A stretch of DNA of 60,660 nt from NCBI GenBank assembly GCA_018434325.1, contig JAHDPO010000047.1, forward strand, positions 1-60,660. The letters are read 5' to 3'. Made by a program: the position numbers and the translations under genes. Under the pieces are notes generated by a model that saw only the letters and a list, made by a program, of their open reading frames with translations, searched no databases and was not told the origin of the DNA. Positions 34,683 to 60,397 of the stretch are shown here, piece after piece; position 1 is the stretch's first letter; each line of letters opens with the position of its first letter. The stretch is from Clostridia bacterium (lineage in GTDB: Bacteria > Bacillota > Peptococcia > DRI-13 > UBA5745).

Positions 34683-34768
34683 ATGGCATTCGGTGGAGTT
34701 TTTGTGAACATAAAATGCGTGTAAAATGCGGTGCCGGAGCTGCCTGACCCCTGGATTCCAAAGCGCAA

Positions 34769-34834: not shown

Positions 34835-35464
34835 CTAATACTTTCTATAATGTCTTAAATATTCTTGACATAAATCCTTTGTCGTAATCATTTTATTCGT
34901 CAGTAATCCACAAACGACAGACGTATACTCTGGGAGAACCCCTGATTTGTACCACAATAAAGGTCTGTCAAAATAGGCATTTACTAATTGCCCTACATCT
35001 ATACCCAAGGATTCAAAGCTGAAAGTCATCCTATTTGGATGGGCACAGGGCAGCCCTGATTTACACTTGCAGGGTTTGCAAAGCCTGCAGCTGCCGGTAG
35101 AAATATAGCCCCCGTATTCTGAAGCTATCTGGCATAAAAATTTATCTGCCCTTGCTTTCAGCATCATATTGGCAGCCTTGATTTTTAAGTAATTATTTTT
35201 TATATACGAAAACTGCAGCATATTTATATGCAGATAAAAAAGGAACAGTTTCTTCTTTCCTTTTGTAAAATCATCGTATACCGGTGAGAAAGGCGGGCAA
35301 GACCACTTCTTATTGTAGTTAGGACAACCCTGCATACATAGCTGTTCAAAGTATTTTTTATCAATATAGCTTTCTAATAATTGTGGCTGAGTCTCCACTA
35401 TTTCAACGGTATAGCTTTTCTCTCCGCTTTTTGATAATGCAGAGCATTCAAAAACCGCCTTCAT
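34835..35464 (-). CDS. DUF2284 cysteine-rich (iron-sulfur type) protein
   Basis: About 209 residues of the DUF2284 family of predicted metal-binding proteins. Two cysteine clusters: CMQGCPNYNKKWSCPPF near the N-terminus and a ferredoxin-like CRLCKPCKC...LPC near 135-150, so probably one or more Fe-S centres. Function unknown; family members are often seen as redox helpers. The ATG at 35464 lies one base after the stop of the HD gene; an alternative ATG at 35482 would overlap it. Last gene of the four-gene XRE/ImmA operon, where it could supply electrons to the radical SAM enzyme. AT-rich compared with secA. Confidence 0.78.
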   Translation of the reverse strand: MKAVFECSALSKSGEKSYTVEIVETQPQLLESYIDKKYFEQLCMQGCPNYNKKWSCPPFSPVYDDFTKGKKKLFLFYLHINMLQFSYIKNNYLKIKAANMMLKARADKFLCQIASEYGGYISTGSCRLCKPCKCKSGLPCAHPNRMTFSFESLGIDVGQLVNAYFDRPLLWYKSGVLPEYTSVVCGLLTNKMITTKDLCQEYLRHYRKY

Positions 35465-35465
35465 A

Positions 35466-37058
35466 TCAGCTGCCCAAATCATTGGCTAAATCAATTGAAA
35501 TTTTACCTTTACGCCAAGTGGCAGGATCATTTTTATTGACCGGCTTATCCTCATCATCATATATTTCCCAAGTAACAGACAGCTCCAGACTATCATGTAA
35601 TCCGTTAATAAAATTTTGATTAAATATCTCATTTTTTATTTTATTGCTGGAATACTTAATATCACCGGTTAAGGACGAGGCTTTATCATTGGCAATGGTT
35701 AAGGTCATATCAAAAGAAATGTTAGGTGAGCTTTCGTATTCAATTACATATTTCCTAATAAATGAGAAATCCCGTTTAATTGTATCCTGGCCATCCCTGA
35801 AAATCGTGACGTAATTTAACGCCTGATCCTTAAGTCTTTTCATTAACCGGATGACAGACTCAGGCCCTTTCCTTTCGGGAATAACCATTTTTTCTGAGAT
35901 CTTGCAATAATGGGGATCTAACTTAGAATCCTCAGAATCAGATTTTTTGGCAATCGTTAAATCTATTTCCCCCGGTTCATATTTATCACCGGAGGATGTA
36001 TATAACTCTGAAATATATTTGCGGCCCCACTCCTGAGTATCATCCGTTATAATAAGTAAGAAGGCAAATGTCCCCATATACAAATGATAAACATCTGTAC
36101 AGGTATGTGAAGCAATTGACCTCAATATCTCACGCCTAATATAGAATTGGCGGCAATCCTCCGGGTCAAATTTGTAGTCCTCATTTATATTGTAATCAGA
36201 CTCCAGAAAATAGGTCAGCAGCTTATATATAATGAGGGTGCTGATAATTCCATGGTTCGTTCTTTCAAGGGATTTTTGAAATTTAAAATAGTATTTCGGC
36301 TGCAGCCTGGCCACATACTTTCTGATCTTTTTCCCCGCTTCTTCCTCTGTTCCCGCATACACCATTTTTGAGCTCATCAGGCGAACTACAAAATCGTTCA
36401 TGTAATTTTGGACACCGTGGAAGGACAAATCCATAGAAATATTTGGGTTTGCAACAAATGTAGAAACCATTGAGTGAGTGGTATCAATAATTTTTTTTGC
36501 TTTCTCCAAAGGATATCCCAAATCATGGGTCAAAGCAATGATTGTCCAAATGCTTATTTTTTCAGCTCTATTTAACTCTATTAGTTCGCTGTCCAAAATG
36601 GAAATAAAATTAAGGTAGTCTCCGTCATTTTTGACCATGCACTCAACTCCGGAAAACCATGTTCTCAATACATGCACCACATGATCACGGTAATATTGAC
36701 CAGAGCCATAGAGCATACTTTCAAATTCCTTATATTTCATATAATATTCATTTAATTCATCCAGACCATAGGCTTTTGGTTTTTTTTCGGTATTCTCTTT
36801 ATTAAAAGGTTCGCGTTTATCAAAAAATCTAAGGCAGCGAATAGCTTTCGACAGCAATAAACGCCATAATTGATCAGTCTTCGCCGAATGGCGAAAAATC
36901 TCGTAATCATCGTCATTGTCGCGGATTAACTGATGGAGTTCTTTGATTTTTTTCATAACCGCAGCATCCAGGGGATGATCACAGGAGAAGCCGGTGAATA
37001 ATTGTGCAGTTTCTTCAGCAATACAAATCGCCATCATACTTTTATCTTTATTGCTCAT
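35466..37058 (-). CDS. HD-domain hydrolase of unknown function
   Basis: A large protein (about 530 residues) with the ordered histidine/aspartate pattern of HD metal-dependent phosphohydrolases: DHVVHVLRTW (about 125-135), ALTHDLGYP (HD pair, about 178-183), then TNHGIIST and IASHTC. Such enzymes cleave nucleotides, cyclic nucleotides or dNTPs. The C-terminal 150 residues look beta-rich (ISFDMTLTI, KISIDLA) and are unrecognised. The ATG at 37058 follows GAGGATG; earlier ATGs (37067, 37064, 37073) are possible. All overlap the end of the radical SAM gene. No known system comes to mind with this partner set. Confidence 0.75.
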   Translation of the reverse strand: MSNKDKSMMAICIAEETAQLFTGFSCDHPLDAAVMKKIKELHQLIRDNDDDYEIFRHSAKTDQLWRLLLSKAIRCLRFFDKREPFNKENTEKKPKAYGLDELNEYYMKYKEFESMLYGSGQYYRDHVVHVLRTWFSGVECMVKNDGDYLNFISILDSELIELNRAEKISIWTIIALTHDLGYPLEKAKKIIDTTHSMVSTFVANPNISMDLSFHGVQNYMNDFVVRLMSSKMVYAGTEEEAGKKIRKYVARLQPKYYFKFQKSLERTNHGIISTLIIYKLLTYFLESDYNINEDYKFDPEDCRQFYIRREILRSIASHTCTDVYHLYMGTFAFLLIITDDTQEWGRKYISELYTSSGDKYEPGEIDLTIAKKSDSEDSKLDPHYCKISEKMVIPERKGPESVIRLMKRLKDQALNYVTIFRDGQDTIKRDFSFIRKYVIEYESSPNISFDMTLTIANDKASSLTGDIKYSSNKIKNEIFNQNFINGLHDSLELSVTWEIYDDEDKPVNKNDPATWRKGKISIDLANDLGS

Positions 37059-38025
37059 CGTCATCATCCTCATTATTCATTAAATATTGTCCGATGCAAG
37101 TCTCGCAATGGCCGTTACCGGAGAATCGCTGTGACAATTCCCTTATAAGGTTTAAATAAGGGGAGTGATTGTAAATATCCAGCAATGATTTATCATAAAT
37201 GCTTTCCGGCCGCATTTCCCTTAAGCACTGGGATATGCGGTCATTTTTGAAAACCTCGCAGGGGAAAACATAGCCATCGTATTTTATGTTGAGCTTACCC
37301 TGAGCAGCCTCACACTTATGGCAAAAGGGATCGGCAGAAAGAGGAACGCCGATACGAACATCGATCTCTGATTTTGTTTTTAATGCCTTTAGCCTGATCT
37401 TAAACTCTGCCAGCTCATCTGCTGTCATAGCAATTCGAGATTCATTGTGCAGGGCTCTGCCATGGGAAACCAGCCGCAGGAAGCTAACTTTGGAAACATT
37501 AAGATCTTTACACAAAGCAATCACGTCTTCAGCCTCATTGGCATTCAATTTCATGGGAACAAAATGAGCCTCGGTAATAATTGAAAATTTATGGGCAGAA
37601 GCTATGGACTGCTTCATCTTTTCAAAGCATCCTTCTGTTCCCATAATTTCATCATAAGTACTTGGTTTTGCAGCCTCAATATTAAAGATTAATTTGGTGA
37701 CATGCTTCGAAATGGCTTTGAGAATATCTTGATCAAGGGATGCTCGGTTATTATATTTATCAAAGGCAATCCCGCTGGTATAGACATAGGATTGCAGACC
37801 GGCAGCTGCAATCAGCTCTATCATGTCTGCAATTTCATGATGGAGGAAGGGCTCTCCGCCGGAAAGGCAGATTGTTTTGGCGCCCAGCTTTGCCGCATCT
37901 CCAACAATAGCAGCAAAGCAGTTAACATCCAAAATCTCTTTGCAGCTCTCATCAGACATAGAAGAGCAATGAAGGCAGTGATTGGGACATCTTCTTATGA
38001 TTTCTATGGAAACTTCTTTAAGCAT
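37048..38025 (-). CDS. Radical SAM enzyme with auxiliary cysteine cluster
   Basis: Generates a 5'-deoxyadenosyl radical to modify an unknown substrate. The [4Fe-4S] motif CPNHCLHC (C-x3-C-x2-C) is at residues about 13-20, followed by SGGEPFLH, the SAM-binding GGE motif. The C-terminus has extra cysteines (FCHKC, FPCEVF, CETC) resembling a SPASM/twitch domain, found in peptide- or protein-modifying members. 325 residues. The ATG at 38025 has GGAGG nine bases upstream and overlaps the XRE/ImmA stop by eight bases. No small precursor peptide gene is evident nearby. It lacks the viperin-specific sequence context, so I do not call it a viperin. Confidence 0.88.
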   Translation of the reverse strand: MLKEVSIEIIRRCPNHCLHCSSMSDESCKEILDVNCFAAIVGDAAKLGAKTICLSGGEPFLHHEIADMIELIAAAGLQSYVYTSGIAFDKYNNRASLDQDILKAISKHVTKLIFNIEAAKPSTYDEIMGTEGCFEKMKQSIASAHKFSIITEAHFVPMKLNANEAEDVIALCKDLNVSKVSFLRLVSHGRALHNESRIAMTADELAEFKIRLKALKTKSEIDVRIGVPLSADPFCHKCEAAQGKLNIKYDGYVFPCEVFKNDRISQCLREMRPESIYDKSLLDIYNHSPYLNLIRELSQRFSGNGHCETCIGQYLMNNEDDDDEQ

Positions 38026-39160
38026 TATTCTCGCCTCCAAGCTGGAATAGCGTCAACTGCTCAGCCTCTCTCTGATTATGCCTATTTTTAACTATATCCG
38101 TTTCAAAAGCAGATAAATACGCTGCTGGCAAAGAACAAATACGCTCAATCTCGTCTAAAGGTAAACAGACCTTGTCATAGAATGAGTTGAAGGATTCATC
38201 GCTTATTACCTGCATAAGAATGCTATTTATTATTTTATGCGGTCTTTCCATTTCAAACCTGTCATCAAGAGGCTCGTTTTTCTTCCAGCCCTGGGAGCTC
38301 ATTTGTATTTTCAATGAGTGCTCTCTGCGGCAGTCAATAATCCCTAATTCCTTGCAATAGCATAGGATTGAATCCACGGGAACCTTCCAAACTTCTTTCA
38401 GGAAAAGTATATCTTTAAGCTTAAGGGAAACAATCATATCCTTAAATATTGTTTCAGACATTAAGAAATACTGAGCAAAAATATCGGCTTCCCGCTCAAA
38501 CCTTTTATACTCATTTTGAAAATCTTCGTCAGACAGTCCACTATGCAGCACCAAATGACCAAGCTCGTGAGCCAAATTATAACGCCATTTAACAACCGTC
38601 ATCTTATTTTTGTTTATTATGATAATTGGAATTCCATTAATAATCCGGGAATATGCCTCTGTTCCAAGCTGAGCAGAGTCTATTACAAAAACATAAAAAC
38701 CCTGTTGTTCCAATAATTCCGTTAAGTTTTTGACAGGCTCATTTCCTATAGACCATTGATTTCTTAATTGCATCACATTTTCAGCAATAGATAAATTCTT
38801 TTCCGCTAAAAAATCAGGGGAACCTGCCGTCTTATTCTCAATAGCAAAAATAATTTCATAAGCCCACTGAGAAATTATATCTGCATAATCTATATGTGAT
38901 TTTGTGGTAATATTAGATTTCTTAAAAAAAAGAGGTGAGCAATTGTCGCTAAAATCAATATTATTTTTACAAACATACTGCCTCGATATTCCAAATACAT
39001 TTAATATTCTATCAATTATTATAGTCGACGGCACGCTTTTGCCATGCTCATATTTAGACACAGCTTGCTTGGTTATGCCTAAATTTGCCGCCAATTGTTC
39101 CAATTTTATATTACGTACTATGCGTATTTGACGAAGCCGAATCGGGTTTATCCCATGCAT
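38018..39160 (-). CDS. XRE regulator fused to ImmA/IrrE metallopeptidase
   Basis: N-terminal helix-turn-helix (about 5-60: LRQIRIVRNIKLEQLAANLGI, KQAVSKYEHGKSVPS) joined to an M78-type peptidase with HELGH (about 197-201) and the downstream EREADIFAQYFL ligand helix. Such proteins are stress- or phage-responsive: the peptidase cleaves a repressor, or itself, to switch on neighbours. The ATG at 39160 follows AGGGGA; the GTG at 39178 is an alternative. First gene of a four-gene operon with overlapping ends, behind a near-consensus promoter with duplicated sites. It is the likely sensor and regulator of that operon. Confidence 0.9.
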   Translation of the reverse strand: MHGINPIRLRQIRIVRNIKLEQLAANLGITKQAVSKYEHGKSVPSTIIIDRILNVFGISRQYVCKNNIDFSDNCSPLFFKKSNITTKSHIDYADIISQWAYEIIFAIENKTAGSPDFLAEKNLSIAENVMQLRNQWSIGNEPVKNLTELLEQQGFYVFVIDSAQLGTEAYSRIINGIPIIIINKNKMTVVKWRYNLAHELGHLVLHSGLSDEDFQNEYKRFEREADIFAQYFLMSETIFKDMIVSLKLKDILFLKEVWKVPVDSILCYCKELGIIDCRREHSLKIQMSSQGWKKNEPLDDRFEMERPHKIINSILMQVISDESFNSFYDKVCLPLDEIERICSLPAAYLSAFETDIVKNRHNQREAEQLTLFQLGGENNA

Positions 39161-39193
39161 AGCTATCCCCTGCAACACTTTTTATTCAACTTC

Positions 39194-39222
39194 ATAATAT
39201 GAAATTTCCATGGATTTGTCAA
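39194..39222 (-). promoter_or_regulatory. Strong promoter of the XRE/ImmA operon
   Basis: On the minus strand TTGACA (39222-39217), a 17-base spacer and TATTAT (39199-39194), about 35 bases before the start codon. Only one base departs from the sigma-A consensus. Confidence 0.85.
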
Positions 39223-39254
39223 CCAAACATTAGTTTTCCTGAAACTTGTCAACC
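39214..39254. repeat. Direct repeats at the XRE/ImmA promoter (possible operators)
   Basis: The word TTGTCAACC occurs at 39216-39224 and 39246-39254, 30 bases apart (about three helical turns). One copy covers the -35 box. This is the layout expected for cooperative autorepression by an XRE-type protein. Confidence 0.6.
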
Positions 39255-41527: not shown

Positions 41528-43993
41528 CTAGATAAACAAATTGACGTTTGATTCCTCGGCATCGGCCAGATAGGTCCCAACGCCGGCATAGTCAATGCCG
41601 TCGATCAGTTCTTCCTCTTTTATGCCCATGACGTCCATGCTCATGGTGCAGGCTACGATTTTGACGCCGTTTTCCTGAGCCTTTTTGATGAGCTCTTCCA
41701 GCGAAGAAACATTTTTCTTCTTCATGATCCCCTTCATCATAGCGGTGCCCATACCCAGCATATTCATCTTGGAAAGCTTAAGTTTGGAAGCGCCGCGGGG
41801 CATCATCGTGCCGAACATTGACTCAATAAAGGTTTTGTCCACCTTTGCTTTATTGTTCTTGCGCAGCACATTGAGCCCCCAGAAGGTGAAAAACATGGTT
41901 ACCGGCCGTCCCATGGAAGCCGCGCCGTTGGCGATAATGAAGGAGGCCAGCACTTTGTCGAGATCGCCGGAGAAAACGATAATCGTTTTTCCCGCGTTAT
42001 CGGCGTGGGATTGGGCGGATTTTAAGGCGCCGCCACCCTTTTGGACGAGGGCCACGTATTCATTGTTTTGCTTTTCGTTTGATACCAATGTATTGCCGGT
42101 GCGCCGGGCCCAGGAGGCGATATCCCGGGCAAAACCGGGGTCGGAAGCGGCGACCTCAATCGTTTCGCCGTCCTTGATATCTTTCATGGCGTCGAAGACC
42201 TTCATAATCGGGCCGGGACACTGCATGCCGCTGCAATCAAGGCGCATACGGGCCGCTACCTGCGCTGCCTGAGGCACGGCCACATTGCCGCTGTCATCTA
42301 CCGGGGCTGCGTTCATGGTCGTCACTTCGCTTTCTTTATAGTGTACAGACTGGTAAAACCGCGTGCCCCCCGGATAAACCTTGACATTGCGAAAGCCATT
42401 TTCCATAAGAATGCGGGCGGCATTGTAGGAACGAACTCCAATGGCGCAAAAAGTGATGATTTCCCTGTCACGGTCAAGCTCTCCCAGACGCTGCCGCAGC
42501 TCTCCCAGAGGGATGTGCTGGTATTTGGGCAGCGCGTAGGCTTCGATTTCAGCGGCCTCCCGCACGTCCAGCGCCACAATATCCGGGGCTGTCACGTCCG
42601 CGTCCCAGGAGGCGAAAACGGCTTTGCCCGACAAAATATTCTCAGCCACAAACCCCACCATATTGGCCGGATCCTTGGCCGACGAGAAGGGAGGCGCGTA
42701 AGCCAGCTCCAAATTTTTGAGATCGCGGACAGTCCCGCCCAGCCGTATGGCCACAGCAAGCGTGTCAATGCGCTTGTCGACGGAATCGCCGCCGACGATC
42801 TGAGCGCCGTAAATCTTTTTGCCGTCCGTTGAGAAGATCAGCTTGATATTTATCGACACGGCGCCGGGATAATAGGAGGCATGAGAGTTCTGCGCAATAA
42901 TCAGCGTCTCATAATCCCTGCCCTTGACAAGGCCGTTTTTCATCAGGGTTTTTTCGTTCTGGCCCGTGGAGGCCGCCGTCATCTCGAAAACCTTGGCCAC
43001 AGACGTGCCCTGGGTGCCTTCATATGTCTCGCTGCCCCCGGCAATATTATCCGCGGCAATACGGCCTTGCTTATTGGCGGGACCGGCCAGCGGTATCATT
43101 GTCGAGCGCTTGTCAATAAAGTCCTGAACCTCAATCACGTCGCCGACGGCGTAGATATCCGGATCGGAGGTCAGCATCCCGCTGCTAACCACGACGCCGC
43201 CCCTGGCATTGACATCCAGCCCCGCCGCCTTGGCCAGTTCACCGTTGGGGCGCACGCCTATTGACAGGATGACGAGGTCGGCCTGGATTTTCGTTCCGCT
43301 TTTTAGGGTGACGCTAACTGCCTCGGCAACCTCCTCGAAGGAGGCGACGCCATCGCCAAGCTGCAGCCGGACGCCCTGCTGCACCAGATGCTCATGCAGG
43401 AGCTGGGCCATTTCGAAATCAAGGGGCGCCATTACCTGCTCCAGAGCCTCCACCAGCGTTACGTTAAGGCCGGCGTGGTGCAGGTTTTCAGCCATTTCCA
43501 GGCCGATGAACCCGCCGCCCACGACGACGGCGCTTTTGACCTTGTTTTCTTTGATGTAATTGCGAATGCGGTCCGTATCCGGCACCGTCCAAAGGGTCAT
43601 GATGCATGAGGAATCGATGCCCGGAATCGGGGGCTTTAGCGGCGATGAACCGGTGGCTAATACCAGCGTATCGTAGCTCTCCGTATATAATTCGCCAGTC
43701 GCCGCCTTTTTGACCGCAACGGTTTTGGCCGCCCGGTCGATGGCAATGACCTCCTGGCGGGTGCGCACATCGATATTATACTTGGCGCCCATGGCTTCCG
43801 GAGTCACCAGCAACAGCGAGCTTCTCTGCTTGATGACGTCTCCCACATGATAGGGCAGACCGCAGTTGGCATAGGAGATATATTCGCCCCGCTCAAAAAG
43901 AATAATTTCCGCGGTTTCATCCAAGCGGCGCAGGCGGGCGGCACAACTGGCTCCCCCGGCAACGCCTCCGACAATCAATACCTTTTTACCCAT
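41528..43993 (-). CDS. CoA-disulfide reductase-type oxidoreductase fused to rhodanese, TusA and DsrE domains
   Basis: A cytosolic sulfur-trafficking fusion of about 821 residues. The N-terminus is a FAD/NAD(P)H pyridine nucleotide-disulfide reductase (VGGVAGGASCAARLR, the SYANCGLPY active-site Cys of CoADR, second Rossmann VVVGGGFIGLE). A rhodanese domain follows (Cys in ITFCAIGVRS), then TusA (CSGMQCPGPIM) and a C-terminal DsrE domain (IIVFSGDLDKVLASF, with KIVACTMSMDVMG). Such fusions reduce CoA persulfides or polysulfide and relay sulfane sulfur. The ATG at 43993 has AGAGGATG upstream; the TTG at 43999 is the longer alternative. Single-gene unit. Confidence 0.93.
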   Translation of the reverse strand: MGKKVLIVGGVAGGASCAARLRRLDETAEIILFERGEYISYANCGLPYHVGDVIKQRSSLLLVTPEAMGAKYNIDVRTRQEVIAIDRAAKTVAVKKAATGELYTESYDTLVLATGSSPLKPPIPGIDSSCIMTLWTVPDTDRIRNYIKENKVKSAVVVGGGFIGLEMAENLHHAGLNVTLVEALEQVMAPLDFEMAQLLHEHLVQQGVRLQLGDGVASFEEVAEAVSVTLKSGTKIQADLVILSIGVRPNGELAKAAGLDVNARGGVVVSSGMLTSDPDIYAVGDVIEVQDFIDKRSTMIPLAGPANKQGRIAADNIAGGSETYEGTQGTSVAKVFEMTAASTGQNEKTLMKNGLVKGRDYETLIIAQNSHASYYPGAVSINIKLIFSTDGKKIYGAQIVGGDSVDKRIDTLAVAIRLGGTVRDLKNLELAYAPPFSSAKDPANMVGFVAENILSGKAVFASWDADVTAPDIVALDVREAAEIEAYALPKYQHIPLGELRQRLGELDRDREIITFCAIGVRSYNAARILMENGFRNVKVYPGGTRFYQSVHYKESEVTTMNAAPVDDSGNVAVPQAAQVAARMRLDCSGMQCPGPIMKVFDAMKDIKDGETIEVAASDPGFARDIASWARRTGNTLVSNEKQNNEYVALVQKGGGALKSAQSHADNAGKTIIVFSGDLDKVLASFIIANGAASMGRPVTMFFTFWGLNVLRKNNKAKVDKTFIESMFGTMMPRGASKLKLSKMNMLGMGTAMMKGIMKKKNVSSLEELIKKAQENGVKIVACTMSMDVMGIKEEELIDGIDYAGVGTYLADAEESNVNLFI

Positions 43994-44123
43994 GATCAAT
44001 CATCCTCTCATCTTTTATGAATCACCGGGCGCTGAGAAATTATCCTTTTTTGAGATCGCCTCCTTGAGGAAGGTGGGAATTGCCGTCATTTATGGTTTTG
44101 GGGCAAGCATTGATAACCGGATT

Positions 44124-45935
44124 CTATAGTAATCGATAAATAGGATAATCAGTTATGCTCCTTCTTTCCTCTTCAGACAATTCGTTTAGTAACTTTCTAG
44201 CATCATGGTCTTCGTCTAATAGGATTGAAATACCGCATCTTATTAGTTTACTGTCGCAGTGTTTACGCCGCAAAACCACTAAGTCAGCAATTTCATCAGA
44301 TGTTAAATTACGCATACGTCGAATTACTTGATATTTGTTAATAACAGTCACTGCAGCATCACTTTCAACTACCTCGGCTATATCAAGCGCAAACTGTAAT
44401 AATTCGTTACTTTTTTTAACTTGCGAATCGTAGGCGTTGATAACTTCCAGCAGCATAGAGTTCACACTGATGGTCTTCTCTGTTTCAGGAATTCTAATTT
44501 CAATTTCTTTTCCTCTGCCATCCATCGTTTTTATTGAATTTAATATTACAGCATAATTCACGTTTGAACACAAAAAATCATCCGCCGTCATATACAAGAA
44601 CAATGACCACGGATCAATAATAACTTTTTCACCGTCTTCCTTTTCAAATTCGTATCGAACATGAGCATTGTCTGAAAAGGCATTAAAAAGACGATAAGCA
44701 TCGCTTCTTTCTTCTTGCTTGGCAAGGATTCGGATAACTACATTCCCGATCCTTTTATTAGAGTAAAATAAGCGAGGCAGGTTTTTTTCTTCGAATTTGA
44801 GGGGCTCTCCAGCTGCTCCTCGGATAAGAGCATCAATAGCATGATTCTCCTCTGCCGATAGATTGCTCATCTCCAAATCCGTATGCACCCCAAAATATTC
44901 AAGGGCAGCTTGCGTTTTTTTAAGAACGTCATTGATACCTTGCAGATTCAATATATCCTTTGGGTTGTCCAAATCGATATTAAGCACTGGCTTTGTACTG
45001 TCTGCACCAAGCCTCGCCCATTTATATTCTGATAAGGCCAGGAGGAAATTGCTGTCGGTAATTCGGTTCTTTAGGGTTCCCTTAAGCGAAAACTTAAAAT
45101 TGTGCTTTTGAAGGGTTTCTCCTGCTGCTGCAAAGGGGAGTTTCAGAACTTGTCCGATATACAGGTAAGCCCTGCCGTTCTCATAGCCGTAAGAAATGCT
45201 ATCGTAGAACTTTTCGCCATTGACATATACGGGTATGTCCTTTTCCATCATGGCTACAGAAGAAACGCTATCCTCAATTTTTGCGAAGGGAAATTCTACG
45301 CCGTCTTTTGTTTCCACATACATATAAAAATCTTGTGTTGTTGCTTCTTTCATCATATCGTAATCGTTTTTGGGCTGGGTCCTTGGAAGAATATGAAACT
45401 TAAGTGTTCCTCCATCTTTGACAGCCCTTAGGGCTTGCTCCTCAGACCAGACGATCTGAGTGGCCTGCCGTTTTTTGTCTTGGAGAAATGCTATGAACAG
45501 TTGCCGGATAGAATCGTCATCCTCCGGTAATTTCTGAAGATTAATTGTCATTTCCTTTTTATTTGCAGAACTTGTAATAGCTCGTTGCAAATCAAAGGGC
45601 AACAGGATTTTATAAAATATAGTTTTAGTTCTATTCTTTTCAAAGGCAACAACGAAATAAATTATGCCTCCGTCTTGCAGGTATTTTTGGAGAGCAGTTA
45701 CTTCCACGCTGTAGCTAAGCTTGGTGGTCTTTTTATTAACGGCTTTTTCCTTTCCTTTTATCTGAACAGGTACCCGGCCAATTAGTTTTTCCTTGCTGTT
45801 GGTACCTTTGGGGAACACATAAATATGCCCATCCCAGAGCGGTTCTTTATCCCGCTCGTTGATATAGGATTGGAGGCCGTCGCAAAAGGCGAGGCGCTCT
45901 TTGACTGCAGTTGTTGCAATTACTTCAGTATCCAT
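44124..45935 (-). CDS. DUF4365 nuclease-like protein
   Basis: The N-terminus (about 1-150) fits DUF4365, a PD-(D/E)XK-like nuclease fold: LWDGHIYVFP... then VPVQIKGKE gives the D...QxK catalytic pattern. The remaining 450 residues are unrecognised. DUF4365 proteins are frequent in accessory and defence-like islands. It lies 27 bases after a DUF4143 ATPase gene on the same strand, so they may be co-transcribed. An internally deleted copy of this gene lies at 49117-49495. AT-rich. 603 residues, ATG start. Confidence 0.75.
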   Translation of the reverse strand: MDTEVIATTAVKERLAFCDGLQSYINERDKEPLWDGHIYVFPKGTNSKEKLIGRVPVQIKGKEKAVNKKTTKLSYSVEVTALQKYLQDGGIIYFVVAFEKNRTKTIFYKILLPFDLQRAITSSANKKEMTINLQKLPEDDDSIRQLFIAFLQDKKRQATQIVWSEEQALRAVKDGGTLKFHILPRTQPKNDYDMMKEATTQDFYMYVETKDGVEFPFAKIEDSVSSVAMMEKDIPVYVNGEKFYDSISYGYENGRAYLYIGQVLKLPFAAAGETLQKHNFKFSLKGTLKNRITDSNFLLALSEYKWARLGADSTKPVLNIDLDNPKDILNLQGINDVLKKTQAALEYFGVHTDLEMSNLSAEENHAIDALIRGAAGEPLKFEEKNLPRLFYSNKRIGNVVIRILAKQEERSDAYRLFNAFSDNAHVRYEFEKEDGEKVIIDPWSLFLYMTADDFLCSNVNYAVILNSIKTMDGRGKEIEIRIPETEKTISVNSMLLEVINAYDSQVKKSNELLQFALDIAEVVESDAAVTVINKYQVIRRMRNLTSDEIADLVVLRRKHCDSKLIRCGISILLDEDHDARKLLNELSEEERRSITDYPIYRLL

Positions 45936-45962
45936 ATTTTTCGTCCTGCCTATTCATTATGC

Positions 45963-47309
45963 TTAATCTAACCGCTCCAAGGCGATCCCAATAATTTTAT
46001 CCGCATAATCCGCCATAAACAGCGGAATATTCAGCAGGTCATCATCCATGCACAGGTTATTCAGTGAAAAACGAACACGAAGCTTTACCTTATCTCCGTA
46101 TTTTTCCTTGTACTTTTTCAAGCTACGGCTCTCTACATTGCTCTCTGATTTAACCTCTACCGGTAAAATGTCATTTTCTCTTTGGATAAGAAAATCAACC
46201 TCATATCTGGGATTGTCCACCGCCCAATAGCGGGGCATGGCCTCAAATTGGTTTTGCAGTGCTTGCAAAACATAATTCTCGCTTAAAGCCCCCTTAAACT
46301 CTACAAACAGTCTGTTCCCTTCGCCAAAAGCGGAAGGAGCCAGGAGAGATAGTCGGCGCAATAATCCTACATCTGCCATATATAACTTGAATGCAGACAA
46401 ATCATCGTAGGCTGAAATAGGCAGGCCCGGTGCAGTACTGCGGTATATCTTATAAGTCAGGTTCGCATCGCAAAGCCATTGCAAGGCATCTTCATATTCC
46501 CTTGCTCTGGCCCCTTCCTTGACAACCTTATAGATGAACTTCTTATTTTCCCTTGCTAGTTGGGAGGGGATTGATTTCCATATCATTGATATTTTTGGAA
46601 AATCCTTAGGGTCGGGGTGTTTGGCAAAATCACGCTCGTAGGCTCCCAAAATATTAGACAGAACCTGCTGCATCAATTCCACATCCCGTTCCTGGGCCCA
46701 GGAACGAACAGACTCCGGCATACCGCCTGTTACAAAATACATTTTAAGTTTTTCATATAATGGATTGAAAAAAGCTTCCGGAATCGGCTCAATTTTTTCG
46801 ACACTTTTCATATAATCGGCGAGGTTACCATCGCCATTGGCCATCAAAAATTCCGTAAAAGTCATTGGCATAATTTCCAAGAAGTCTACCTTGCCTACAG
46901 GAAAGGATGCGGGCTTAGATAATGCTATACCCAAAAGGGATCCTGCACAGGCCACATGATAATGGGGCGCATTTTCGCAGAAGTATTTCAATGTGTTTAA
47001 TGCGTTGGGACATTCCTGTATCTCATCAAAAGCGATAAGCGTATCCCCCGGATTATCTCGTTTGATGACTTCCCCGCTTGCCATCATCAGATTTTGCAGA
47101 ATACGCTCTACGTCCTTGGTGCTTTCAAAAAACTGTTTATATTCCGGGTGTTCGTCAAAGTTGAAATAAGCCATATTTCCATAATAGCGTTTTGCAAATT
47201 CCTTGAGAAGCCACGTTTTGCCGACCTGGCGCACTCCTTTTAAAATAAGGGGTTTTCTATATTTGGAACTTTTCCAGTCCAGCAGTTTTTTCATCACCAG
47301 TCTTTCCAC
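45963..47309 (-). CDS. AAA ATPase with DUF4143 nuclease-like C-terminus
   Basis: Walker A GVRQVGKTW, Walker B LIAFDEIQECP and sensor AGSLLGIAL in the AAA_14 core. The C-terminal DUF4143 domain ends with YEVDFLIQ...LPVEVKSE, the PD-(D/E)XK pattern. Close in layout to the 53.5 kb gene, which starts MERLNKW; by comparison the GTG at 47309 (VERLVMKK) is the likely start, with GGGGGCG upstream. The 33 codons of the longer frame before it include a likely -10 (TATAAT). Role unknown; these proteins are often strain-specific. Confidence 0.85.
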   Translation of the reverse strand: MERLVMKKLLDWKSSKYRKPLILKGVRQVGKTWLLKEFAKRYYGNMAYFNFDEHPEYKQFFESTKDVERILQNLMMASGEVIKRDNPGDTLIAFDEIQECPNALNTLKYFCENAPHYHVACAGSLLGIALSKPASFPVGKVDFLEIMPMTFTEFLMANGDGNLADYMKSVEKIEPIPEAFFNPLYEKLKMYFVTGGMPESVRSWAQERDVELMQQVLSNILGAYERDFAKHPDPKDFPKISMIWKSIPSQLARENKKFIYKVVKEGARAREYEDALQWLCDANLTYKIYRSTAPGLPISAYDDLSAFKLYMADVGLLRRLSLLAPSAFGEGNRLFVEFKGALSENYVLQALQNQFEAMPRYWAVDNPRYEVDFLIQRENDILPVEVKSESNVESRSLKKYKEKYGDKVKLRVRFSLNNLCMDDDLLNIPLFMADYADKIIGIALERLD

Positions 47310-47484
47310 ACTATCGCCCCCAGCCAACACATTATAATACACATTTAGTGCTTTATAATCACATTCTTATTTATAAGTATAGCCAGCATTCCACGATCAG
47401 TCAAGGGAAATCCCATTATTATTGAGGCCGGAATTGGAAGCGCTAATTGGAAGTTCTATACGCCATGACTTCTTTGGCCTTTTC

Positions 47485-47512
47485 TGAGCAAAAATTCCGT
47501 TTGTATGGGGAT
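47485..47512 (+). repeat. Dispersed intergenic repeat, forward copy
   Basis: TGAGCAAAAATTCC then GTTTGTATGGGGAT, matching the 28.2 kb units. An inverted partner lies 107 bases away (47620-47646), so the two could pair in RNA. Confidence 0.75.
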
Positions 47513-47619
47513 AGCGTTTTTATGATAGCGTCTTTAAGCCTCCCCGCGCACTGGATATAGAGCAAAAGCAGCATTGTTCATTGCAAAACTCAAAATTTTA
47601 AGCAGTTAGCCAGAGTAAA

Positions 47620-47646
47620 CAGCCAAACAATCGAATTTTTTGCTCA
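47620..47646 (-). repeat. Dispersed intergenic repeat, inverted copy
   Basis: On the minus strand TGAGCAAAAAATTCG then ATTGTTTGGCTGT. It is followed by a weaker related word (CATCGATTTTTGCATC, 47668-47683). The 47310-47705 gap holds no gene. Confidence 0.6.
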
Positions 47647-47705
47647 TTTTTCAGCGTTCTAACCGAACATCGATTTTTGCATCTCCCGACGAAGGGCTGA
47701 ATGAT

Positions 47706-49025
47706 TCAAATAGCCGGCCTCCATACCATTGTGTTATATAAGGGCAGAAGAATTTCCATTACCCTCAGTATCTCGGCACAGGTGGTAGCCTGCGTTTTAA
47801 GGATATCATCATCAGGCTCATAAAATTTCCTTAAATACGATTCCCTCCCATCCTGATCATTTTCTCTGAAATAATCACAGAATGTTTCAGGATCTTCATT
47901 GTCAATATCAAAAGTAAACCAGTCTCCCTGGGCGCTATCCCAGATAACCCACTCCATGCCCTGACCTTGAAGTTCCTGCAGTCTGGACTCTATTTTAGGT
48001 TTTAGTTTTGTTAAATGCTGATGAAGATAAGCCCGGTCAATAGCACCACGCCTTACCGCTAAAAAAAGGTTGATGTCGAAGCCCTCAGATCCGATGCTAT
48101 ATTGCAAACATCCGTGCTTTTGAAAGCCATAAATATCGTCGTCTTTGTCTTTCCCCATATTTAGGACATCCACTTCAGGCGGCGTCTTGCCATAACGTAC
48201 ACCCAGCCACCCGACAGAGTACTGGTTTATCGGGTGGGGGACAATCAGAGAGGTTATATTCTCTTTTCTTTTGTGGTGAGCGATGCCTAATTTCTTAATA
48301 CTCGGATATATCTGCTGATGTATGCTGAGCATTTTTATTTGTACTCTTTTACGCTTATCTGCAATAGCAGAACCTATCCCTCTTTGATTTCTCGGAAAAA
48401 ATGTTTCGTAATCTTCATAAGTAAAATAGTAATCAGCAATATCATAATCATCCGGTGCAAAGGGATCATCCTTATGAGTAAAGCCGCTCAATTTTGCCGA
48501 CAGCTTTTGCTGAACCTTGTGAAGCTCCTCGATTTCACTTTGAATATCTTTATAATACTTAACAACTTCAGCATCCACTAATTGAGCGATGTGTTCGCAA
48601 GTATCGAAAAAGGAAGTGACTGATTTAATATCATCGGGCGACGGAGTACCGATAAAATCAAACTCTATATTGCGGAATACTCCTCCCCCAGTAAAATTGG
48701 ATGAACCATATATCAATTTGTCAGGATTTCCACGGAAGAGATATACCTTGGCATGAAAGCTATGGTCAAAAATGATTTTCGTATTGCATAGTCCGGATAA
48801 TTGCTCAAGAATTTCGCCGGGCTTATCTGATGAAAAACTTGCCGAAAGAAATAAGGTGATGTCTTCCTTTTGCAGCAGATATCTATCCTTGATCTGCCGA
48901 AGCATTCTGACGCCCTCTGCAGATAAAAATGCCGAAGCGATGGTTACCTTAGACACTGATTTGCACGACAGAAACTCACCCTCCAGTGTTGTACCGGCTT
49001 CAGTTTTATGTTTCCAGTAATACAC
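47706..49025 (-). CDS. Phospholipase D-like nuclease-family protein
   Basis: The N-terminal third fits a PLDc_2 domain: FHAKVYLF with the HxK pair at about 91-93 and GSSNFTGGG about 15 residues on, as in BfiI/NucT-like nucleases and DNA-repair or restriction-associated proteins. The rest (about 150-439) is unrecognised. Start GTG with GAGGTGAT upstream. It sits alone between the repeat region and a pseudogene in an island rich in nuclease-like genes, so a DNA-directed or defence role is plausible but unproven. Confidence 0.75.
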   Translation of the reverse strand: MYYWKHKTEAGTTLEGEFLSCKSVSKVTIASAFLSAEGVRMLRQIKDRYLLQKEDITLFLSASFSSDKPGEILEQLSGLCNTKIIFDHSFHAKVYLFRGNPDKLIYGSSNFTGGGVFRNIEFDFIGTPSPDDIKSVTSFFDTCEHIAQLVDAEVVKYYKDIQSEIEELHKVQQKLSAKLSGFTHKDDPFAPDDYDIADYYFTYEDYETFFPRNQRGIGSAIADKRKRVQIKMLSIHQQIYPSIKKLGIAHHKRKENITSLIVPHPINQYSVGWLGVRYGKTPPEVDVLNMGKDKDDDIYGFQKHGCLQYSIGSEGFDINLFLAVRRGAIDRAYLHQHLTKLKPKIESRLQELQGQGMEWVIWDSAQGDWFTFDIDNEDPETFCDYFRENDQDGRESYLRKFYEPDDDILKTQATTCAEILRVMEILLPLYNTMVWRPAI

Positions 49026-49116
49026 GATATCACCTCAATACCATCGATAACTCCATAAATACGACAGAAATCATAGGCCTGGCTTTCTTTGGAGGAAGCT
49101 GCCTACATTATCGTTG

Positions 49117-49495
49117 AACGATAGTAATCGATAAATAGGATAATCCGTTATCCCCCTTTTTTCCTCTTCCGGCAATTTCATCAGCTGTTAAACTGTGCAT
49201 ACGGCGGATTGCTTGATATTTATTCATAATGGTCACTGCGGTATTACTTTCAATGGTCTCGGCTATATCAAAGGCAGATTGTAATAATTCTTCACAGCCC
49301 TTACCGCTTGCTCCTCAGACCAAACGTTCTGGGTGGCCTGCCGTTTTTTATCTTGGAGAAAGGCTATAAACAATTGACGGATAGAGTCATCATCCTCCGG
49401 TAATCAAGGTAACGACGAAATAAATTATGCCTCCGTTAATATAGGATTGGAGACCGTCGCAAAATGCTAGGCATTCTTTGATGGCAACTGTCTTC
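49117..49495 (-). pseudogene. Internally deleted copy of the DUF4365 gene
   Basis: Blocks of this stretch match separated parts of the 44124-45935 gene in order: its 3' end (GTAATCGATAAATAGGATAA at 44125 and 49122), a block near 44290-44404, a block near 45420-45530, one near 45641-45674 and one near its 5' end (45857-45912). The parts between are missing, and substitutions and frameshifts have accumulated. It cannot encode a protein. Confidence 0.88.
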
Positions 49496-49503
49496 CCATG
49501 GGT

Positions 49504-50919
49504 TTAGTTTATTACAGCAAATAAAATACTGAATATCACCATGCAGACAAGGGAAAATCGGCCATTGACGCTTAATGACAAATGCCAGGAGGAGCACCCT
49601 GCCAGACCTGCCGCTAAGAGATTGACTCCGGAAAAGGGCGATGCTAAAACCGAAAGCAGCCAGCCGGCAAGTATGGTGAGAGCAAAGATCAGGGGATGCA
49701 GTCCCAGAAGTACCGGATCGAGTGCCAGCACCAGTGCGGAGCCGGTGACAATAGCGTGCACCCCAGCCAAAGAGGGTAAGATGATAAGCAGCATCAATAC
49801 CATGCAGAGAAATACCGTATGATTCGTTAACCAGACCGGCATCCAGGCTGCAATCAGCTTTCCGATACCGGCGGCAGACAGAGCTACTCCCAAGAAACCT
49901 GCCGCTGTATATAAGTTGACCTGATTGAAAATCTTCATTATGCCGTGTTTATAATAGCGTATGATGGCTTCTTTATAAACCGGCAGCTTCTTCTGAAATA
50001 AGGCGCAGACAAAAGGGAAAGCCAGAGATACCAAAGGAATGACCAGAGGCAATGGCCAATCGGTGAAAAAGGCCAGCAGCATAATAGAGCCAATCAGCCC
50101 TACCGCAAGGCCCAGCATCGTCCATAGCTTTTTAACATCCACTTCCTCACCGGCTTCTTCTGCCAATTGGCGGAATCGCTGGGGATGGCGTTTCATGGTA
50201 AAGGCCAGCTGGGATAGATTGATAGCATTAATGAAAACGCTCAGCGACACCCCACAGACCACCAAAGTCAGCCAGGAGATACCCATGGCAGAGGTAATTA
50301 ATATCACCGATGCCCAAGACGGGCCCCAAAAGCCGCCGAGGCAATAACTGCGCAGCAAGACGGCGGAGAAATAATCTTCATCGGTGTAGAGCTTGCCCTG
50401 GTCACTGAACACCCCATGCACCAGATTTAGGGCGCCCATACTGATCAACACCCCTAAGAAATGGCTGCAAACAGAAATTAAGACACTAAAGGACAAGAAG
50501 CTGCGCAGGTAACGGCGGGAAAAACGCAGCAGCTGCTCCTGGTAATCATCATAAAAAAAGGGCATGGCCATCAGCGGCGCACAGATAAAAATCAGGACCA
50601 GACCGGCATTCGTCAGCAGACCGTTCATCCAAAGGCCCAGATTTGCCTTCTGCCAGACAAACAAGAGGATACCGGCTAAAAACAATCCGCTGCTAACTGC
50701 CCGGGAGACGCCGGATATCTCGCGGAAGCCAATGAACATTACTAAAATCAGAATGAGGCAGCAGGCCTTGGCCAAGACTGGCGCCGGCGTAAACTGGCTG
50801 AGTAAATATACAATGACAAAGGCTAAAACGATCATGCGTTTGCCATGGGCCAACTGCGATAGCCGCTGCGGTACTGCCGGCAGGCTTGCTTTTTTATTCT
50901 GAAAATCCCCTTGGGCCAT
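49504..50919 (-). CDS. Polytopic membrane protein, unrecognised carrier
   Basis: About 470 residues with 11-12 hydrophobic segments and one soluble loop near 225-245 (KRHPQRFRQLAEEAGEEVD). Motif-like stretches CLGGFWGPSWAS and SPFSGVNLLAAGL suggest ion-transporter-superfamily hairpins, but I cannot name a family. The ATG at 50919 (MAQGDFQ) or GTG at 50931 could start it. No functional neighbour: a pseudogene lies downstream and toxin and transposase fragments lie upstream. Confidence 0.65.
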   Translation of the reverse strand: MAQGDFQNKKASLPAVPQRLSQLAHGKRMIVLAFVIVYLLSQFTPAPVLAKACCLILILVMFIGFREISGVSRAVSSGLFLAGILLFVWQKANLGLWMNGLLTNAGLVLIFICAPLMAMPFFYDDYQEQLLRFSRRYLRSFLSFSVLISVCSHFLGVLISMGALNLVHGVFSDQGKLYTDEDYFSAVLLRSYCLGGFWGPSWASVILITSAMGISWLTLVVCGVSLSVFINAINLSQLAFTMKRHPQRFRQLAEEAGEEVDVKKLWTMLGLAVGLIGSIMLLAFFTDWPLPLVIPLVSLAFPFVCALFQKKLPVYKEAIIRYYKHGIMKIFNQVNLYTAAGFLGVALSAAGIGKLIAAWMPVWLTNHTVFLCMVLMLLIILPSLAGVHAIVTGSALVLALDPVLLGLHPLIFALTILAGWLLSVLASPFSGVNLLAAGLAGCSSWHLSLSVNGRFSLVCMVIFSILFAVIN

Positions 50920-50992
50920 CTCTGCGATCACACCTTCCGCATATTATGAATAAGCTTCTACAGCCTGAGCCCATGATAACTTTAGCCTTTTC

Positions 50993-51085
50993 TTAAATCC
51001 AGTTTTCCAGCAAGAGACCATCCACAGATTCAAATTCATGCATGTTATTGGTCACAAGTGCCAGCTTGCTCGGAATATTGTCCAT
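50993..51085 (-). pseudogene. C-terminal fragment of a VapC-type PIN toxin
   Basis: The minus strand encodes KLALVTNNMHEFESVDGLLL followed by ENWI and a stop, which is the conserved end of VapC toxins (LVTNN..EF..V.GL.LENW). The N-terminal catalytic part is missing and the fragment abuts the IS66 remnant. No antitoxin gene is present. Confidence 0.75.
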
Positions 51086-51112
51086 ATTATACTCTCTTTC
51101 TCTCCCCCCATC

Positions 51113-51486
51113 AATGGAGATATTGGGTGGCTTACCCCTTGCCTTTTCCAATCCTGCTCCTACCGATACAGTGGCACATACATCATGTATTTCTGGGTCA
51201 TGATGTGGGCCGCAGCAGAAGGGGAAGCCAGGCTGCCCTTGATCAGGGCGGCAGGCATGGCTGCTTTTATCACCGATACAGCATCACCGGCTTTCTCGCA
51301 TTGCCGGCAAGCATAGACAGCACGCCGGTGCTCCACCACCTTAACCTGGGCGGGAATAATCTTCAATTCCCGGCGGACATCGTGCCCCATCTCATGCAAA
51401 GCACCGCCGCATTCCGGGCAGAATTGTTCTTCCTGGGCAAGCTTGTCTTCGACGGTTTCTACCGGCAAGACCGACAGGCCATCTTT
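51113..51486 (-). mobile_element. IS66-family transposase remnant
   Basis: The minus strand encodes the zinc-finger region of an IS66 TnpC: EEQFCPECGGALHEMG, RRELKIIPAQVKVVEH, YACRQCEK, SLASPSAAAHIMTQKY and VPLYR. An in-frame TAG follows where the element normally has CAG (reading on gives EQDWKRQGV), and the sequence then loses homology. Both ends of the element are gone. It interrupts the RecQ-like gene on one side and abuts the VapC fragment on the other. Confidence 0.88.
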
Positions 51487-53479
51487 ACCGGATAGGCGCT
51501 ATCCGCCGTAAGCTTATGCCGACATTTTCCAGAGCGGCGATGGCCGTCTTAACCCTCGTCTCAACTTCCCCAAGGGAATCATTCCAGCCCGCCTGCCGGG
51601 CAATTTCAAGAGCGGAGCAGCAGACCTTCGGCCGCAGCCGGGTCAGATCCTTGACGGCCTTCCAGACCTGTTGAATCTCACTGATGCTGAGCTTCGTCTG
51701 GTTCAGCAAAAGGAAATGCTTATCCAGATCATTGTCGCTGAAAAGCACATAGCATTCCGCCTGCTGGGAAGGCTCCCGGCCCGCCCGGCCGGCCTCCTGC
51801 ACGTAATTTTCCAGGGAATCCGATATATCATAATGCACCACCAGCCTGACGTCTTTCTTATCAACGCCCATGCCAAAGGCGGGGGTGGCCACAATCACCT
51901 GTATCTCATTGCGGATAAAGGCCTCCTGATTGGCAATCTTATCTCGCGGATCCATTTTCCCATTGAAAGGCCTGGCCAAAAAGCCGTCGCTGATCAGTTT
52001 TTCCGCCAGTTCCGCTGTCCTTTTGGTGCGGGAAACATAGACGATGGTTGGGCAGCTCTTTTGTTGAATCAGCTCCCGCAAAGTACTGTATTTCTCTTCC
52101 GGGGTTTCCTTATAGAGAACCATATAATGCAGATTCTCCCTGGCCGCAGCGGTCGCATATAATTCCAGATCGAGATCCAGCTTTTTCTTGAAATAATCCC
52201 GGATATCGCTGATCACCTTCTGCTTGGCGGTGGCGGTAAAGCAGGAAACCGGAATGGTCGCTTTATTGCCCTTGGCTTTCTGAAGCTCCCGAATAAAATC
52301 CCCGATATACAGATAATCCACACGGAAATCTTGGCCCCATGCGGAAAAGCAATGAGCCTCATCGATGACAAATCTGACTATATTGCGGGAAAAAAGCAGC
52401 TTCTCGATGGTCCGGGAGCGCAATTGCTCCGGAGATATATACAGCAAAGTAGCCAGGCCGCTTTCTACCCGCTGCAGGGCTTCCGCACGCTCAAGGGGGC
52501 TCAACAAACCATTGACGGTGACGGCATCGGCAATGCCGATTTGCTCCAGATTATCCACCTGATCCTTCATCAGCGATTGCAGCGGCGAAATCACCACCGT
52601 TAAGCCATGAGCAGCTTCGCCGGCCATCAGCGCCGGCAACTGGAAGGTAATAGATTTGCCGCCGCCGGTGGGGAAAACTGCCAGCAGAGACTTGCCCCGA
52701 ATAGCCGCCTCCGCCGCCGCTTCCTGCAGATTCTCGCCATTATATTTGCGAAAGCTTTCATAGCCGAATATGCGTTTCAGCCCGGCATGCACATCCAAAG
52801 TCTTTTCACAATAGCTGCAGCCGGCGGAGCAGGGGGTATTGAGCAGAAGCTTGATGACATTTTCCACCCTGGGGAAATTCCTCAGCACCCAAGGCGGCGT
52901 GATGGAGTAGCTATCGCCGGCGGCAATCATCGCCAATGTGTAGGCCAACTCAACGGGATAATATTTGATGAGGGCCGCCAGATCGGCATAGGAGCAGATC
53001 TCCTCCGCAAACTCTGCTTGAATAACATCGCCCGAAAGAGGATAAGGGCTAAAACCATTGAACTTAAAAAAACCCTGGAATTCGGGGAAGGGATAAAGCA
53101 AAGAGCAAAAAATCCTCTTGAGCCTGGCCGGCAGCTCCTTGAAGGCATTGACTTCGTCGTAAAAAAGCTGCATGGCCTTGATGGAGTCGTTCAGCGGGTT
53201 ATTGAGCTCCTCCGTCTGCAATTTATCGTCTTTTAGTAAAGCATGATAAGGTTTCCGGGGAAAAAGCAAAGGCGATAGATACAAGGTATCGATCGCCAAA
53301 GGCCGGTTATTTTCGTCGAGAAGATGACCCAAGTACTTCAGATCATGGGCAATAATATTATGGCCGCAAATAAAATCGGCGCCGGAAATAAAGCCGGCGA
53401 AATCCTTTTGGGAGGCGGAGTGAAATTGCGAGCCCTCCGGCTTTACGGCGCCCAGGTCTAATATTTTTTCAGATTCTAT
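51485..53479 (-). pseudogene. Exonuclease-RecQ helicase gene truncated at both ends
   Basis: A DnaQ-like exonuclease part (GHNIIAHDLKYLG, AIDTLYLSPLLFP) is fused to a RecQ-type helicase (Walker A PTGGGKS, DEAHCFSAWGQDFR, SCFTATA, GMGVDKKDVR, QEAGRAGRE). The frame is open back to 53479 (IESEKILDLGAV), but a TAA precedes it and the first residues, including the Exo I DxE acid motif, are missing. The next gene ends 46 bases away. At the other end the helicase stops near AIAALENVGI, where the IS66 remnant starts. A TTG at 53332 could start a 615-residue helicase-like protein without a full exonuclease. Probably dead, though the helicase core is intact. Confidence 0.8.
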
Positions 53480-53525
53480 TTATAATATTGTCGTATGATT
53501 TTTAAATATGGTCCCGACAATCGTA

Positions 53526-54818: not shown

Positions 54819-55109
54819 AAAGCATCACCTCGGAATATAGCATATCCCATTCCATCACTTTTTACAACGATAATTATTTATTAATTAACATTAATTACGA
54901 CGAAACAAGGCAAGCGTCAAACAGTTCTGCAATTTAAAAACCTGGGCTTAATACCATGTTGAACAATAAGCGTTAAGCGGAGATAACCGCAAAAACGGTA
55001 CAGAATCGGCTTGAATTTGGCTTAAAAGCCTTTGCAAATCACTGCAATCGAAGAAATTGTACAAACTGCAGAGGTATCGGACGCGGCAATCCGAGGCAGC
55101 CTGGTGTCT
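54819..55109. other. Intergenic region, nothing recognised
   Basis: About 290 bases with stops in all frames and no clear terminator, promoter or repeat-family copy. It may contain decayed coding sequence, but I could not identify any. Confidence 0.4.
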
Positions 55110-56501: not shown

Positions 56502-56759
56502 AAATTGATCCGTCCTCTGATTTATGTATTCCACGTAGAATATACGATATGTATTATTACAGACATCATGCCGTAATTTATAGTTAATTGCAAGCCGTAT
56601 TTATACGCTACCTTTCTTTCTAACAAATATATTGTTTAAATAACGTTAAATTGATAGCTTCCGCACCCTTGTCAATTCAGAGGAACGCTTGATTTTTAAA
56701 GGATTAAGCAAACCCTAACTAAAAGCTTTTTTAAAATTATCTTCCATCAGTTAATTTAT

Positions 56760-57071: not shown

Positions 57072-57076
57072 ATAAT

Positions 57077-57691: not shown

Positions 57692-57830
57692 TACACCCTC
57701 TCATTCTGATTAGCATACTTCTTAAAATGCTCGACCTGATTCCAGTTTTTTCTGAACGTTCCATCATTTGTGATAGGGTACCTTTCTTTTCATGATAAAG
57801 CAAATGGCAACAGCTTTTTTATAGCTTGTA

Positions 57831-59764: not shown

Positions 59765-59833
59765 TCTGAGCTTCCCTTCCTCCGAAAATAAACATCCATT
59801 TGTTTCAACAATCCAATTTTAATAATAAATTGG

Positions 59834-60325: not shown

Positions 60326-60397
60326 AATGCCCTCCATCCTGATCGCACATTATATTCTAGAAATAGGCTATATGAGAATTAATTATTATCTATAGCG

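Follow-up and report, generated by a model that had tools for sequence, protein, structure and literature searches.

The cobalamin radical S-adenosylmethionine (SAM) enzyme OxsB remodels dATP and requires OxsA, an HD phosphohydrolase that strips phosphates, and together they make the antiviral nucleoside oxetanocin-A (PMC8177086, PMC13331322). The 4'-thiothymidine cluster thmA-C is a mobile three-gene set of radical SAM and nucleotide-acting genes in which a hydrolase provides self-protection (PMC12691670), and phages of E. coli are stopped by systems that combine 5-hydroxymethyldeoxyuridine (5-hmdU)-kinase, thymidylate-synthase, and NMAD domains (PMC13092281). Here, we describe a cassette at positions 34835-39254, on the minus strand, of a 60,660-nucleotide stretch of DNA from a Clostridia bacterium (contig JAHDPO010000047.1, positions 1 to 60,660, assembly GCA_018434325.1), the whole of which is called the window. 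The open reading frame (ORF) list and the sequence gave one promoter and four tightly packed genes, encoding in order an XRE-ImmA regulator, a radical SAM enzyme, an HD protein, and a DUF2284 protein. The cassette looks like an undescribed relative of antiviral nucleotide-chemistry systems. As the first-pass annotation of this DNA had supposed, no named system with the four-gene set was found in the libraries and literature searched, although an earlier in-silico mention of the radical SAM/HD pair is possible.

Operon layout and putative operator

The features of the cassette, in window coordinates, are as follows.

38018..39160, minus strand: XRE-ImmA regulator, ATG at 39160 in an ORF reaching GTG 39178 (PF01381 and PF06114)
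37048..38025, minus strand: radical SAM enzyme with a reduced SPASM/twitch-like C-terminus (PF04055 and PF13186)
35466..37058, minus strand: HD-type metalloprotein, ATG at 37058, longest ORF from 37073 (invariant residues)
34835..35464, minus strand: DUF2284 Cys-rich protein, ATG at 35464, longest ORF from 35482 (PF10050)
39194..39222, minus strand: sigma-70-type promoter TTGACA-N17-TATTAT, its -35 box inside the proximal repeat (sequence)
39218..39254, minus strand: pair of direct GGTTGAC repeats at a distance of 30 bases, putative XRE operator (same repeat in loci L017, L029, and L030)
34712..34713, no strand: end of similarity to the sister genome G023 (genome comparison)

The packing, base composition, and promoter agreed with the first-pass annotation. 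The XRE-ImmA and radical SAM genes share 8 bases (stop at 38018, ATG at 38025), the radical SAM and HD genes share 11 bases (stop at 37048, ATG at 37058), and one base separates the HD stop from the DUF2284 ATG (35464). The HD start was set at 37058, not at the longest-ORF start of 37073, because 37058 fits the conserved MxNKD. The Pfam cut-offs were exceeded by Peptidase_M78 and HTH_3, Radical_SAM and SPASM, and DUF2284 in the respective proteins. The operon, with a G+C content of 0.381, is AT-richer than the adjoining prfB-secA stretch (0.559); the value for the whole window was 0.498. The near-consensus promoter consists of the -35 box TTGACA (39222-39217), a 17-base spacer, and the -10 box TATTAT (39199-39194), and a second GGTTGACA copy lies 30 bases upstream of the promoter's own copy.

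The GGTTGAC pair was unique within the window, and none of 100 shuffles yielded one. Two to four direct copies of GGTTGA[CT] were present 44-103 bases before the XRE-ImmA start in all four loci encoding this regulator, overlapping the -35 box in the window copy; among 20000 dinucleotide shuffles, at least two copies arose by chance 1 to 58 times, varying by locus. In 13 cassettes lacking this XRE-ImmA, the 300 bases upstream contained no such repeat on the coding strand. Its occurrence in 4/4 XRE-ImmA loci and 0/13 others provides comparative evidence for autorepression. The XRE-ImmA protein is thus predicted to repress its own operon, in line with the earlier proposal that the operon is under an ImmA-type regulator.

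Recurrence, mobility, and exchangeable partners

A scan with the patterns QPKYYFK and NEDY[KM]FD, confirmed by tblastn, covered 84,980 species, each represented by a single genome. The HD protein was the sole bait, so the cassette partners were unselected. The scan yielded 17 genome loci, 16 of them readable upstream of the HD gene; a radical SAM gene was directly upstream in 15 of the 16, and a DUF2284 gene was directly downstream in 13 loci. Because the scan was biased to near relatives, these counts are minima. The full four-gene order was also found in Desulfosporosinus (L017), Defluviitaleaceae (L029), and Eggerthellaceae of the Actinomycetota (L030), so the set recurs elsewhere and in varied contexts, as had been anticipated. 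On a Parabacteroides distasonis plasmid, an HD relative (45% identity) directly follows a related radical SAM gene, and the pair is preceded by a protein of 166 amino acid residues without known family, a ThsB-type TIR protein, Nmad2, and HMUDK_hel.

In the window's phylum, 398 genomes were sampled, as were 348 from the family to which the L026 genome belongs, 344 from the order of the L031 genome, 398 from the class of the L030 genome, and 226 from the order of the L028 genome; this added one core member (G644) to those already known, and no further copies were found in the sister family of the source genome. The cassette is missing from the sister genome G023, whose SecA is 97% identical; G023 retains the secA side up to window position 34712, where similarity stops, and not the region to the right. 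The HD, radical SAM, and DUF2284 trees each joined the four XRE-ImmA loci with four spmA-linked, mostly Lachnospiraceae, loci (support of 100/100, 88/80, and 99/97, respectively), and the Actinomycetota copy was placed among Bacillota copies or at the clade base. The agreement of the three trees indicates that the cassette genes move together. An integrase and Mob_Pre were encoded near the cassette in L030 and an integrase in L003. By these sequence comparisons, the cassette is a rare one that moves as a unit, even between phyla, and its spmA-linked branch probably lost XRE-ImmA. A chance neighbourhood was rejected because the gene set recurs and the trees are congruent. A phage origin was likewise rejected, as phage records gave no HD match and viral contigs no DUF2284 relative; the only HD relative in viral contigs was that of the Bacteroidota island, and the QPKYYFK pattern matched mostly unrelated phage genes there.

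The partners varied among loci. DUF2284 was replaced by HMUDK_hel in L022, and a uracil-DNA-glycosylase (UDG)-superfamily protein stood at its place in L044 (genome G644). L016 had no radical SAM gene and encoded an XRE protein, a papain-family protease, a phosphopantetheinyl transferase, HMUDK_hel, and two thymidylate synthase-like proteins, one above and one below the Pfam cut-off. L003, L009, and L031 carried TIR, Nmad2, and HMUDK_hel, with additional ThsB-type and TIR-SLOG proteins in L031. Neighbours in L026 matched PADLOC PDC-M03B (E 1.7e-104) and PDC-M28, and a HipA-like kinase was among the conflict neighbours. HMUDK_hel, UDG, thymidylate synthase, and Nmad2, which take the place of DUF2284 or accompany the core, are base or nucleotide families; for most of the exchangeable families, the action or at least the name relates to bases or nucleotides. 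The HMUDK_hel and UDG-like swaps and the TIR and Nmad2 additions in Bacteroidota versions point to nucleotides and conflict. Judged by gene content, the core of the cassette is radical SAM plus HD; neither of the other two is indispensable, since XRE-ImmA occurs in one clade only and DUF2284 is exchangeable. This refines the four-gene system put forward in the first-pass annotation. The expectation that copies would lie next to defence genes was borne out for some, which adjoin defence genes or candidates, and not for all.

In the related loci L018, L020, L023, and L026, the three-gene cassette lies shortly after spmA, and L026 has candidate defence genes between the two; a defence hotspot at these spore-maturation genes is possible. 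In the Paenibacillus HMUDK/HD island of L016, an ImmA-type metalloprotease (L016:1207-2843) is fused to a chagasin-family protease inhibitor beside the papain-family protease. To the right of the cassette, window 41528-60337, which was not found beside secA in G023 and is perhaps a genomic island, encodes two DUF4143-like AAA ATPases (45963-47342 and 53526-54818), a PLD-like protein that weakly matches ZacB (47706-49025), and a RecQ-like helicase (51485-53332).

Properties of the four proteins

The XRE-ImmA protein scored 47.2 bits with PF01381 and 62.1 bits with PF06114 and matched PADLOC RmrA over residues 9-366 (E 1.6e-72); the NCBIfam spr1629 antitoxin model gave 152.6 bits, under its cut-off of 335. 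ImmA-family proteins relieve repression upon stress.

The radical SAM enzyme scored 55.9 bits with PF04055 and 28.9 bits with PF13186 (SPASM), and its CxxxCxxC motif begins at residue 13. C13, C17, C20, C238, C256, and C310 were invariant in 16 relatives. The seven-Cys SPASM pattern was incomplete, with C238, C256, and C310 the only invariant cysteines after the barrel and C307 present in 75%; identity as a full SPASM enzyme was rejected on account of these reduced cysteines. A pVip profile matched weakly (46 bits), and the nearest solved relatives include PqqE, SkfB, and YydG. Three viral contigs of 75-250 kb (L073, L074, and L075) encode radical SAM proteins about 30% identical to the cassette enzyme; their genes adjoin ones resembling anaerobic ribonucleotide reductase, and neither HD nor DUF2284 accompanies them.

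No NCBIfam model matched the HD protein, and no Pfam model did so above cut-off; the relative L052 matched PF01966, below cut-off only. With residues numbered from the longest-ORF start (37073), R129, H131, H134, H183-D184, H274, and D344 were invariant in 20 relatives; H323 was likewise invariant across the 17 core members. The HD-superfamily ligand pattern H..HD..D is present as H131, H183-D184, and D344, and the conserved R..H..HD..H..H..D residues uphold the original assignment from motifs. The arrangement H..HD..H..H..D is diagnostic of a dinuclear HD site and occurs in dinuclear phosphodiesterases too, and a conserved Arg shortly ahead of the first His marks HD phosphatases (PMC8177086); the HD protein fits both signatures. 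The HH pair typical of characterised polynuclear phosphodiesterases was not seen. An AlphaFold model had a predicted template modelling score (pTM) of 0.81, with low confidence around the site. VIA-align of this model placed the C-terminal part of exopolyphosphatase first (Z 7.5, 182 residues, 4.2 A) and SpoT lower (Z 4.3), a likeness that is suggestive only; in the PDB, Foldseek returned no hit with E below 0.001, and no entry was related by sequence. In the distant HD siblings L050, L052, and L104, a RyR domain is either part of the HD protein or encoded next to it, and the neighbouring genes are of TIR type (a TIR-LRR gene) or encode an AlwI-type restriction enzyme. A solitary sister family of 505-535 residues (L045-L049, L103, and L106-L108), fairly common in Clostridium-like genomes, has no radical SAM or DUF2284 neighbours.

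The DUF2284 protein scored 80.1 bits with PF10050 (gathering cut-off 25), and seven cysteines, probably enough for one or two Fe-S clusters, were invariant in 14 relatives. In the fold comparison of its structure model (m69d0765da6b2, pTM 0.86), CblD occupied the four top rows (Z 7.1-7.5, 118-126 residues), and the activation domain of methionine synthase MetH and the epoxyqueuosine reductase QueG scored about Z 4.5; aspartyl-tRNA synthetase rows at Z 5-5.8 make the noise level visible. CblD, the MetH activation domain, and QueG are all cobalamin-linked, and the model points weakly to cobalamin-linked folds. A Foldseek search of the PDB had no match under E 0.001, and full-text literature searches on DUF2284, alone or with radical SAM, returned nothing relevant. 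The source genome has a second, more typical, stand-alone DUF2284 gene (L109:4719-5300, contig C22).

Proposed role and comparison with described systems

We tentatively explain the cassette as a horizontally moving, repressor-controlled nucleotide-chemistry module of conflict or stress type, a reading whose chances we put slightly below even. A conflict role, most likely against phages, is fairly probable, and nucleotide chemistry is marginally favoured. XRE-ImmA would bind the GGTTGAC repeats over the -35 box and silence its own operon, as the conserved operator suggests, and an inducing signal, for which phage infection and DNA stress are plausible candidates, would lift repression via the ImmA metalloprotease domain, as expected from its family. 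The radical SAM enzyme, aided here by the Cys-rich DUF2284 protein, may then modify a (deoxy)nucleotide or base, and the HD protein with its R..H..HD..H..H..D site may strip phosphates from the substrate or product. The sensor role for ImmA and the redox-partner role for DUF2284 put forward in the first-pass annotation are hypothetical. The module reading is favoured by the recurrence of radical SAM and DUF2284 next to HD, the agreement of the three trees, the operator repeats, the base or nucleotide partner families, the conflict neighbours, the HD signature residues, and the OxsB/OxsA, 4'-thiothymidine, and 5-hmdU-kinase-system precedents. Several points weigh against it: XRE-ImmA is limited to one clade and most cassettes lack it; the radical SAM enzyme has no N-terminal cobalamin domain by Pfam and was rejected as a viperin (NCBIfam viperin 32.7 bits vs cut-off 180); the structural matches of the HD and DUF2284 models are weak (Z at most 7.5); the partner frequencies, obtained with two short motifs, are valid for near relatives only; and the spmA-adjacent copies may have been inherited vertically there. 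A broader version, doubtful at present, is a new class of bacterial immune module that would produce a modified nucleotide with an exchangeable set built on the radical SAM/HD pair; the third enzyme could be DUF2284, HMUDK_hel, or the UDG relative, and XRE-ImmA or TIR proteins could alternate as sensor or effector.

The OxsB/OxsA and thmA-C precedents (PMC13331322, PMC12691670) and the three-gene form without an effector gene would also fit a small biosynthetic operon without a defence role, whose product would be a cofactor or nucleoside antibiotic and whose HD protein would serve in release or protect the producing cell. TIR, SLOG, and PADLOC-candidate neighbours in some forms, the ImmA-type repressor, and the lack of an exporter or dedicated kinase in the cassette make this rather unlikely. 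A RosmerTA-like toxin-antitoxin system, with XRE-ImmA as the antitoxin RmrA and radical SAM/HD/DUF2284 as an unusual toxin released on infection, is unlikely: no RmrT model matched the three enzymes, and 13/16 readable loci hold the enzymes without this XRE-ImmA, so no antitoxin seems needed. On its side are the strong match to RmrA models (E 1.6e-72), the NCBIfam naming of XRE-ImmA relatives as repressor/antitoxin, the tight overlap of the XRE-ImmA and radical SAM genes, and the pairing of RmrA with very different toxins (PMC10440598).

A role in signal clean-up or signalling, in which the radical SAM enzyme would modify a nucleotide signal, cyclic or of ADP-ribose type, and the HD protein would act on this signal as a phosphodiesterase, accords with the H..HD..H..H..D site shared with dinuclear phosphodiesterases (PMC8177086) and with the RyR domains and TIR neighbours of the distant HD siblings; it is improbable given the missing HH pair and the DUF2284 form without TIR genes. 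Least expected, and very improbable, is a maturation operon for a protein or a ribosomally synthesised and post-translationally modified peptide, despite PqqE, SkfB, and YydG among the nearest solved relatives and the SPASM match of 28.9 bits. The SPASM-type cysteines are reduced, and this reading was rejected after a comparison between loci of the small ORFs that precede radical SAM revealed no conserved small precursor next to the cassettes. The only shared small ORFs encode a TIGR04540 protein (L021 and L022) and an excisionase-like protein (L024 and L044); the TIGR04540 proteins precede radical SAM in L021 (356-616) and L022 and are 54% identical.

If the proposed nucleotide-chemistry module is real, it would be a second radical-chemistry route in bacterial immunity beside viperin, give a functional context to DUF2284 and the unnamed HD family, and link nucleotide chemistry by radical SAM enzymes with the sphere of HMUDK, Nmad, and TIR proteins. 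With its small size and clean operator, the four-gene form lends itself to direct expression and testing.

Viperins make chain terminators, and the cassette may be likened to pVip in placing a radical SAM enzyme in an antiviral nucleotide-chemistry setting; however, its enzyme has a SPASM/twitch-like C-terminus and an HD partner and lies far under the viperin cut-off. RosmerTA likewise has an RmrA-type HTH-ImmA regulator as its first gene, but the downstream radical SAM, HD, and DUF2284 genes of the cassette have no RmrT match and usually occur without RmrA. Some cassette forms share HMUDK_hel, Nmad2, or thymidylate synthase with the DefensePredictor candidates, whereas the window form has none of the three; the main text of that paper mentions neither radical SAM nor HD (PMC13092281). 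The thmA-C cluster resembles the cassette as a mobile set of radical SAM and nucleotide-acting genes and differs in having a nucleoside kinase and no DUF2284. OxsB, unlike the cassette enzyme, has its own cobalamin domain, OxsA uses H..HD..D whereas the cassette HD protein has two further conserved His residues, and the OxsB/OxsA pair has no DUF2284 and no ImmA repressor. By analogy, it nevertheless offers a likeness to the cassette in the pairing of a radical SAM enzyme with an HD phosphohydrolase, there acting on a deoxynucleotide and with cobalamin involved.

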